Part shown: one piece after another, positions 481 through 51,540 of the stretch
Numbering within the stretch: the first letter of the stretch is position 1
Layout of the letters: each line of letters opens with the position of its first letter
From: an uncultured Planctomycetales bacterium
Lineage (GTDB): Bacteria; Planctomycetota; Planctomycetia; Isosphaerales; Isosphaeraceae
DNA: 64,000 nucleotides
Direction of reading: 5' to 3'
Assembly: GCA_903926465.1 (NCBI GenBank)
Contig: CAIYJE010000189.1
Span: 1 to 64,000 of the forward strand
Notes under the pieces: generated by a model
Databases searched by the model: none
What the model saw: only the letters and a program-made list of their open reading frames with translations
Told to the model about the DNA's origin: nothing
Program-made: the position numbers and the translations under genes

Positions 481-1596
481 ATGGTGCCTGCATTACAGGC
501 CTCGATCGGCGTTCGCGCATGCCGATCTCTGGTTCTCATGAGTTTCTTGCTGTTTGGGCTGGCATTGCTAGCCGGATGCAGTAACCGCCGAAACGCATAT
601 CGCCCAATTTACTCAACACGATCCAGTTCTGCCGATTGCCCTTCCGGTGATTGTGGAACCATCGTCAGCTCGCCAAGCGCGGTTCAGAGCCAGCCCAATT
701 ATCAGAGTTCGCCAAGCGGTGCATCGCCGGCCCCCACACCGTTCGGATTTGGCTCGAACGCCGATGAAGAGCCAACCGATCTCCAGCCGGTCTCTCCGCC
801 CAAAGGCACAACAGGCCCAGGTGCGGCACGCACCAAAGCGATTCCAGCCGAGCCCGAGTTTGTTCGGCCGGGTAACACCACATCGAGCAGGGAACTGAGC
901 CGCCCAAGAATTGACAGTAACACCTCACGGGCAGGAATTGTCACTCCCGAAGCGCCAGCTTCAGATACTTACACCCTGCCTCCCGAAAACCTGGAGGAAC
1001 CGGTTCTTGCTCCCCCCTCGCGAACCTCCCAGAAATCTCGCAAAAGCCTGCTCTCGCCCGCCAAAGCCGGACAGTCTCGCCGGAACCTGCAAACCTTTGT
1101 GAATGATCCCGACGATCTGTTTACCCCCCCGCGTGCAGATCGACCCTGGCGGTACATCGTTTTGCATCATAGTTCCCAGCCCTCCGGTTCGCTGGGCGAA
1201 ATTGATGCCGACCACCGGGAACGGCTGGGCACGATGGGCTGCGGTTATCACTTTGTTGTTGGAAATGGTACCGGTTCGGGAGACGGTCGAATTGAAGTTG
1301 CAGCGCGCTGGGCTGAGCAAAAAGGTGGACAGCATTGCCGTGATAGCCGTGTTAACGATATCAACGAATATGGGATTGGAATCTGCCTGATTGGAAACTT
1401 TGACGAAGGTAAAGCCAGCGAGAGCCAGGTGGAAGCCACGAAATTGCTGGTCGCCTATTTGCAAGAGCGGTACAGCATCCCGGAAGGCAACGTGGTCACG
1501 CATGACGCAGTTGCGAAAAGCGACTCCGTTTGCCCTGGAAAGAATTTCCCAAGGGCACAAATTCTAGGTCGCAGCCGTGGGTTGGCCCAGAATTGA
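481..1596 (+). CDS. Lipoprotein N-acetylmuramoyl-L-alanine amidase (Amidase_2/PGRP fold)
   Basis: Predicted to cleave the lactyl-amide bond between muramic acid and the stem peptide of peptidoglycan. Residues 1-33 form a lipoprotein signal with lipobox LLAGC (Cys33), so the protein should be lipid-anchored. A Ser/Pro-rich low-complexity linker of about 180 residues follows. The Amidase_2/PGRP domain covers about 220-365, with the expected zinc ligands visible: His229 or His230 in YIVLHHS, His341 in THDAV, and Cys351 in SVCPGKNFP. A GGGAG lies about 10 bases before the ATG. The gene stands alone. The family assignment is firm; the physiological role (wall turnover or recycling) is inferred. 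Confidence 0.88.
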   Translation: MVPALQASIGVRACRSLVLMSFLLFGLALLAGCSNRRNAYRPIYSTRSSSADCPSGDCGTIVSSPSAVQSQPNYQSSPSGASPAPTPFGFGSNADEEPTDLQPVSPPKGTTGPGAARTKAIPAEPEFVRPGNTTSSRELSRPRIDSNTSRAGIVTPEAPASDTYTLPPENLEEPVLAPPSRTSQKSRKSLLSPAKAGQSRRNLQTFVNDPDDLFTPPRADRPWRYIVLHHSSQPSGSLGEIDADHRERLGTMGCGYHFVVGNGTGSGDGRIEVAARWAEQKGGQHCRDSRVNDINEYGIGICLIGNFDEGKASESQVEATKLLVAYLQERYSIPEGNVVTHDAVAKSDSVCPGKNFPRAQILGRSRGLAQN

Positions 1597-2178
1597 TCCA
1601 AAATACCGTCCGGCAAGCAGGGATCAGTGAGTGGATCTCCTTCCTGAATAATCGCCCGAAGCACTAGCGCGTGGATTTCTATTGAATTACTGTGCCAAGT
1701 CGTTCGTAACGCAAATTTGAACCGCGATCGGCTATTCCGCACCGCTTTGCGGGCTCCAGATTCAGGCAAGCAAACGTATCATTGTGCGGAATGCCAACGT
1801 TCATGGTTTTGAGCCCCAAAGACCCCGGTTTTGCATGGGTGCTATTGAGGTGTGCTGGCCGAGGTGGAAACGCTTCAAATTCTTGGAGATCGGTGGTCTG
1901 GACCTCACCAAAGCGTATCCGCTTAGCGCTTGTATTCTAAATTCCCAGGGCTCGTTCAACAGACGGTCGTTGTGGCGCGTTAAAATTTTCGACCTACGGT
2001 GAATACTCCGGAAGAAATCAACAGGGTAAACTGAGTAATCTCGCTCGTGGTTTCCAACCTTGACGGCTGGGGCCTCGCGTGCCGGTCCGCGACACGTCTC
2101 CGTGAGTCGATCCACTTGCCTCTAACTGAGGCCTTTGGTGGATAAGCGGACTTCGTTTAACTTACCAGGGGCAGCACC
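1597..2178. other. Intergenic stretch, no gene recognised
   Basis: About 580 bases between the amidase and the YidB/BON-like gene. Only short open frames occur, none with a start signal, domain or recognisable composition. No tRNA or clear terminator hairpin was seen. It presumably contains the promoter of the gene at 2179, but no convincing -35/-10 pair can be named. Confidence 0.5.
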
Positions 2179-51117: not shown

Positions 51118-51146
51118 AAAAAAAACCCCGTGAATCTCACGGGGTT
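51118..51146 (-). terminator. Rho-independent terminator of the tRNA-Lys gene
   Basis: On the minus strand: AACCCCGTGA-GAT-TCACGGGGTT followed by TTTTTT. A perfect 10-bp stem starting 15 bases after the tRNA 3' end. Confidence 0.92.
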
Positions 51147-51160
51147 CAGATCACCTTGAG

Positions 51161-51540
51161 TGACCGGGGTGGGGCTCGAACCCACGACCAACGGATTAAC
51201 CTGCCTCATCGACTTTCACCGACCGCAGAAACCAAGCTAGATTTCGTACGTTGAGGTCTGGACTCTACCTTCGCCATCACAGGCGCACCGCGTCGAGTCT
51301 CTGAGGCTGGAACCGACAATCTGCCGCTCCCTTGCCTGCTGATTACCCAATCCCCCAGCTTTTCAAACAATCACGCTTGCCGTTACCGGCGACGTTGTTG
51401 TGTGGGGGCTCTCAGGGTGTCCCAGCAAACTGCGATGTCCACTCATACGGTTCGAATTCTTCCCGTATGAGGCTCCTTTGCAATCTAGCTTTTGGCCAGA
51501 CACTTGAAGTCCGTTGCTCTACCGACTGAGCTACCCGGTC
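51161..51540 (-). tRNA. tRNA-Lys(UUU) gene interrupted by a group I intron
   Basis: The two exons are 51507-51540 (34 nt) and 51161-51199 (39 nt); joined they make a standard 73-nt tRNA. Acceptor stem GACCGGG/CCCGGTC (7 perfect pairs), D-arm GCTC/GAGC with loop AGTCGGTA, anticodon stem ACGGA/TCCGT, loop CTTTTAA, 5-nt variable loop TGGTC, T-arm GTGGG/CCCAC with loop TTCGAGC, discriminator A. CCA is not encoded. The joined anticodon TTT gives lysine. Shifting the splice sites by one base would give GTT (Asn), but G1-C72 with A73 fits Lys, as does the P1/P10 pairing of the intron. Confidence 0.9.
51200..51506 (-). ncRNA. Group I intron (IC3-like) in tRNA-Lys, 307 nt
   Basis: Inserted after U34 of the anticodon. 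The 5' exon ends in U and the intron in G (position 51200), as required. P1 can form between exon GGACUU and intron GUGUCU, with U34 paired to G51503; P10 can form between exon UU (35-36) and intron AA (51504-51505). The catalytic core is recognisable by CAGAGACTCGACG (complement of 51291-51303) and AGAGTCC (complement of 51260-51266), the conserved P7 strands also found in cyanobacterial tRNA-Leu introns. A 9-bp hairpin CTCATACGG/CCGTATGAG at 51442-51471 fits P2. No ORF or homing endonuclease is inside. Confidence 0.88.

Follow-up and report, generated by a model that had tools for sequence, protein, structure and literature searches.

The 307-nt insert in the only tRNA-Lys(UUU) gene of the source genome is almost certainly a group I intron of a spliced gene, with a P4-P6 domain resembling that of 23S rRNA introns (IB4-like), at a site probably colonised by an rRNA-type or recombinant intron, while a separate IC3-type lineage occupies the site elsewhere. 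A group I intron in the anticodon loop of this tRNA had been proposed in a first-pass annotation, and structure, boundaries and homologues now support it strongly. The gene occupies positions 51161-51540 on the minus strand of the window, as we call the whole 64,000-nt stretch of DNA analysed, and the coordinates, the perfect tRNA halves and the placement of the insert after U34 were exact in that annotation (Table 1). Gene anatomy, covariation, conserved boundaries, the single copy, precise empty sites and inheritance by genus were established directly; the chemistry, splicing in the cell and the essential role of the product are inferred, splicing with high confidence.

Table 1. Features of the interrupted tRNA-Lys(UUU) gene and its surroundings (window coordinates)
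Feature	Position	Strand	Evidence or detail
5' exon of tRNA-Lys(UUU), acceptor through U34, 34 nt	51507..51540	-	same length and junction in 36 homologues
Group I intron, 307 nt, without space for a homing endonuclease gene	51200..51506	-	covariation, R1 match, terminal G
3' exon of tRNA-Lys(UUU), U35 through discriminator base, 39 nt, CCA unencoded	51161..51199	-	
Intrinsic terminator-like hairpin (11 bp stem) and T run, just 3' of tRNA-Lys(UUU)	51123..51147	-	
Internal guide GGAG	51473..51476	-	P1 = C51509-G51473, T51508-A51474, T51507.G51475 (splice-site wobble), C51506-G51476
P3 5' strand, pairs with 51291-51286	51432..51437	-	double changes in 3/6 pairs
P4-P6 domain, extended P5 (P5a, P5b, P5c ending in GUAA loop)	51310..51427	-	covariation, diagnostic positions
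P7 5' strand, bulged A51300	51295..51301	-	C51295-G51265: A-U 24/34, C-G 10/34
P7 3' strand	51260..51265	-	covariation
P8 hairpin	51272..51285	-	G-C to A-U in 8/34

Once the exons are joined a cloverleaf with a UUU anticodon forms, which ARAGORN reads as tRNA-Lys(ttt) with every arm paired and which has intronless orthologues (L094-L097). The splice point could shift along a run of U; the cut was placed after U34 because any other cut would forfeit the U.G pair at the splice site, the terminal G of the intron, or both. The hairpin downstream of the 3' exon is consistent with a transcribed gene, and a sigma-70 scan of the locus gave no promoter, a pattern that is uninformative for planctomycetes.

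The structure was assessed on 34 aligned intron cores for P2, P3, P4, P5, P5a-c, P6, P7 and P8. The proposed pairings, including the P7 pseudoknot, are formed in 98.2% of cells over the 34 sequences as against 31-43% in slid controls, a percentage biased towards fit as the structure was derived from the same sequences. Double-sided changes are the stronger evidence: they occur at 25 pairs versus 11.5 in shuffles, with 0 of 500 shuffles reaching 25, and are found in P2, P3, P5a-c, P6, P7 and P8, while P4 and P5 proper do not vary at all and so carry no covariation signal. The P3 of the window itself has C-G and A-U where others have U-A and G-C. In P7, G51301 and G51299-C51295 pair with 51265-51260 in a pseudoknot with P3; the two P7 strands had been singled out from the sequence beforehand, and the switch of C51295-G51265 between A-U and C-G backs their pairing.

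P1 is formed by the exon CUU and C+1 with the guide GGAG and comprises 4 bp only, with an A.C mismatch beyond; in two homologues (L091/L092) a U at +1 is matched by an A in the guide, a compensating change. P10 amounts to 2 bp in the window, and among the 60 tRNA-Lys introns collected (215-357 nt) at least 2 bp are found in 37 and 3 bp in only 17. The first-pass claim that P1 and P10 pair with the exons consequently stands for P1, which is real but short, whereas P10 is marginal. The U at the end of the 5' exon and the G at the end of the intron, read as hallmarks in the same annotation, are present in 60 of 60 of these introns. The precursor tRNA would fold with the exon CUU paired to the guide GGAG (P1, splice-site U.G), upon which a guanosine bound in P7 would attack after U34; the freed U34 would subsequently attack after the terminal intron G and join the exons to a normal tRNA-Lys(UUU), presumably needed for the reading of AAA.

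Standard annotation can overlook the gene, as had been anticipated. In default mode (no introns) ARAGORN finds zero tRNAs in the 64,000-nt window, and with the intron option it misplaces the anticodon and mis-calls the gene as tRNA-Asn(gtt). The suggested check against the Rfam group I model RF00028 does yield a match to the window copy, but with 21.6 bits (E 0.0086) it falls below the gathering cut-off of 50. As RF00028, applied across the whole phylum, misses nearly all tRNA-Lys introns of this kind, a dedicated covariance model, R1, was built from the family. R1 assigns 240 bits to the window intron, which is itself in the training set, 208-269 bits within the Isosphaeraceae and 108-122 bits to Microbacteriaceae introns. 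Some tRNA-Lys introns exceed the Rfam cut-off, namely those of Agromyces cerinus (57.0 bits) and Microbacterium (54.9 and 52.5) and an IC3-type intron in a Rhizobiales MAG (51.2). Since default ARAGORN and RF00028 both miss the intron, genomes of this kind would seem to be without tRNA-Lys(UUU).

The source genome is a draft of 207 contigs and 6.9 Mb with a completeness of 99.66%. Its 45 recognised tRNA genes, with all anticodons read, include Lys(CTT), and Lys(TTT) is absent among them. BLAST of the joined exons against the genome recovers the 51161-51540 locus alone, plus weak similarity to the Arg(TCT) and Asp genes, so that neither approach provides the intact tRNA-Lys(UUU) elsewhere that the first-pass annotation had named as evidence against itself. 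Counted over 38 long window ORFs, lysine is encoded by AAA at 209 positions and by AAG at 416. A CUU anticodon is unable to read AAA by standard wobble rules, and as a second Lys(UUU) gene is missing from the genome, the spliced tRNA-Lys(UUU) is probably essential.

A second group I intron of the source genome (G000:C95:73162-73418; locus L055, about 1478-1803) scores 71.3 bits, above the Rfam cut-off, and splits the only tRNA-Ile2(CAU) gene after U36. The Azoarcus-type intron of tRNA-Ile(CAU) is likewise located after U36 and, unlike the window intron, has an IC3 core. By gene content, two tRNAs that look essential, Lys(UUU) and Ile2(CAU), would rely on ribozymes in this organism.

A search of the family recovered the same insert at the same junction in 36 of 45 Isosphaeraceae genomes, and the insert is thus found in other planctomycete tRNA-Lys genes, where the first-pass annotation had proposed to look for it. 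In the sister genus g12 (G016-G019) the exons are exactly joined with no extra base, a natural empty site; as this genus has the exactly joined gene and the insert lies in the same place throughout the 36 genomes, the insert is not a chance occurrence. The aligned family introns measure 281-338 nt and the genes are 67-80% identical to the window gene, with exons nearly invariant across genera and a diverging intron. Five of the 45 genomes showed no clear match (G012, G015, G020, G034 and G024, the last with a weak 19.6-bit match only); a possible reason for four of them is that the assembly is incomplete (68-89%), but G034 reaches 93%. In the intron tree, with a second G008 copy set aside, every genus with at least two members is monophyletic, as would be expected if the intron was inherited vertically and lost in one genus. 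The second G008 copy is located on a 4.7-kb contig (G008:C218, L087) and hardly differs from the copy in another genus (L081), so that contamination of the assembly is probable.

In G005 and probably in G027-G030 (L099-L103) a further copy of the last 7-9 intron bases and the 3' exon lies kilobases away from the split gene. In L099 (1-7001) an ORF resembling a tyrosine recombinase (749-2071, minus strand, judged by eye) lies between the gene and the partial copy, and the intron-bearing tRNA-Lys gene appears to serve an integrative element as its attachment site.

The evidence on copy number and conservation makes it very unlikely that the insert is decayed or inactive, the tRNA gene a pseudogene and AAA read by another tRNA. 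The sub-threshold Rfam score of the window copy would suit such decay, but the source genome has no other tRNA-Lys(UUU), the exons stay near-invariant while the intron diverges, compensatory changes keep the ribozyme structure and the terminator is retained. We give hardly any credence to a protein-spliced (bulge-helix-bulge) or group II intron, as the position in the anticodon loop, common to many tRNA introns, is 34/35 and not the canonical 37/38, and as the size, the P3-P8 core, the covarying bulged P7 pseudoknot, the exon U and the terminal G all fit a group I intron, orthologues of which score above the Rfam group I cut-off. The fragmentation of the draft genome might hint at an assembly or binning artefact; this has a negligible probability given that the intron recurs in the 36 genomes, several of which are assembled in one to five contigs and are complete or nearly so, and in the isolates Tautonia sociabilis and Aquisphaera insulae.

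The subtype of this group I intron departs from the IC3 class, the usual one among bacterial tRNA introns, that the first-pass annotation implied. At 15 diagnostic positions of P4-P6, the window lineage agrees with planctomycete 23S introns at 9-14 and with IC3 tRNA introns at 1-5, and its P5a-c extension is backed by covariation; the domain chimera test behind these counts was informative for P4-P6 alone, with 4 diagnostic columns in P3 and 2 in P7-P8. The planctomycete 23S introns of this comparison sit partly at a position that we take to be site 1931, and going by the site they would be IB4. Archaeal introns at 23S sites 1923/1931 are IB4 (PMC6125680), and IC3 introns are without the P5(a-d) extension (PMC11835236). 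Like the IB4-type 23S introns of these sites, the window intron carries the P4-P6 signature GCUGG..GGGYAAUCAGCAGG..CCUCAGAGACU or one close to it; unlike them it resides in a tRNA, has P1/P2 and a 3' end like those of tRNA introns and possesses no endonuclease. As to planctomycete 23S rRNA introns themselves, several were collected (L142-L147), with two neighbouring introns within a single gene in L144 and inserts resembling endonuclease genes in L145 and L146.

With cyanobacterial tRNA-Leu(UAA) introns (L267, L303-L331) the window intron has in common the U34/35 position, a 5' exon (A/G)CGGACTT (ACGGACTT or GCGGACTT), the splice-site U.G, the guide GAG and a same or similar P2 start GAGCC, while it differs in the host, tRNA-Lys(UUU), in the type of P4-P6 and in the extended P5; in sequence they are distant matches (R1 28-48 bits versus 208-269 within the Isosphaeraceae). 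An ordinary IC3 intron as in cyanobacterial tRNA-Leu(UAA) could have moved via the near-identical anticodon arms (ACGGACTT/AATCCGT), and transfer between Leu(UAA) and Lys(UUU) tRNAs would be easy because the two share the 5' exon ACGGACTT, which the guide may recognise, as well as position 34/35. The shared P2 start accords with such a move, as do the Lys introns of Nesterenkonia, Rhizobiales and Sphingomonadales, which are IC3-like in P4-P6 (12-13 IC3 versus 0-1 23S positions). For the window lineage, however, the diagnostic positions, the extended P5 and a tree that separates the two Lys-intron lineages, with modest deep support and long branches, render this origin unlikely.

Core type and tree thus divide the introns at the tRNA-Lys(UUU) 34/35 site into at least two lineages, and in the window lineage an rRNA-type intron or a recombinant has probably colonised the site. 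Tentatively, the tRNA-Lys(UUU) introns of planctomycetes, Microbacteriaceae and Poribacteria might represent a distinct lineage of rRNA-derived ribozymes (IB4-type or IB4/IC3 recombinant) that moved into a tRNA, acquired from tRNA introns the ends that recognise the exons, and have been fixed in the family's only AAA-reading tRNA, a history we hold to be plausible though short of probable.

Outside the Isosphaeraceae, GTDB contigs were scanned for an interrupted Lys(UUU) 3' half, with matches filtered by R1 and a pairing 5' exon, in addition to a class-wide search. The tRNA-Lys(UUU) gene is interrupted at 34/35 in at least Gemmataceae, Planctomycetaceae, Microbacteriaceae, Nesterenkonia, Poribacteria, a Rhizobiales MAG and a Sphingomonadales MAG, where the taxon labels of MAGs may be wrong in places; L188 and a weak Clostridium case (L247) were left out of the phyla count. 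For Nesterenkonia, which the scripted check missed over one unpaired stem position, the ARAGORN call of L278 supplied the exons. Near-fixed in the Isosphaeraceae, the intron is rare in the Microbacteriaceae, with 3 clear matches in 250 sampled. False matches of the pattern scan (apparent tmRNA 3' ends, tRNA-Asn-like genes and chance) were dropped by R1 and the requirement for a pairing 5' exon. A contig titled Alphaproteobacteria (L155, WGNJ01000027.1) carries an Isosphaeraceae-type Lys intron of 220 bits, and its title is probably wrong.

Other planctomycete tRNAs harbour group I introns as well. Interrupted genes read as tRNA-Arg(UCU) (L292, L293) and tRNA-Arg(CCU) (L300, L301), and tRNA-Arg(UCU) may also be an unreported host. 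In CAU tRNAs, the initiator Met and another (L148, L149, L150, L296), the introns are read as lying after U33, like cyanobacterial fMet introns.

Bacterial tRNA group I introns have been reviewed from cyanobacteria and a few alpha- and betaproteobacteria, with Leu, fMet, Ile and Arg as hosts (PMC4033280), and the fMet and Ile2 introns have been noted to lie outside the design of tRNAscan-SE 2.0 (PMC8450103). Turning to lysine tRNAs, the open-access literature holds a single claim, a 'group I intron' in tRNA-Lys(CTT) of Gloeocapsa PCC 73106 with an insert of 37-49 nt (Mohanta et al. 2017, PMC5733544). It likewise concerns the anticodon loop of a lysine tRNA, but another isoacceptor, with no group I structure given. 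A group I core needs around 200 nt, for which the Gloeocapsa insert is too short, and it can consequently not be a group I intron. As far as open-access papers show, the suspicion that the lysine host might be new has held up, and tRNA-Lys(UUU) appears to be a new host for group I introns, with a subtype unexpected for tRNAs.

These results add tRNA-Lys(UUU) to the hosts, and planctomycetes, actinobacteria and Poribacteria to the carriers, of such introns. Because one tRNA site hosts two intron lineages, of which one has a core of the rRNA type, it becomes possible to test for transfer by reverse splicing or recombination. As the interrupted gene is the sole copy, AAA decoding in the source genome, and probably in most of the Isosphaeraceae, would depend on a ribozyme.
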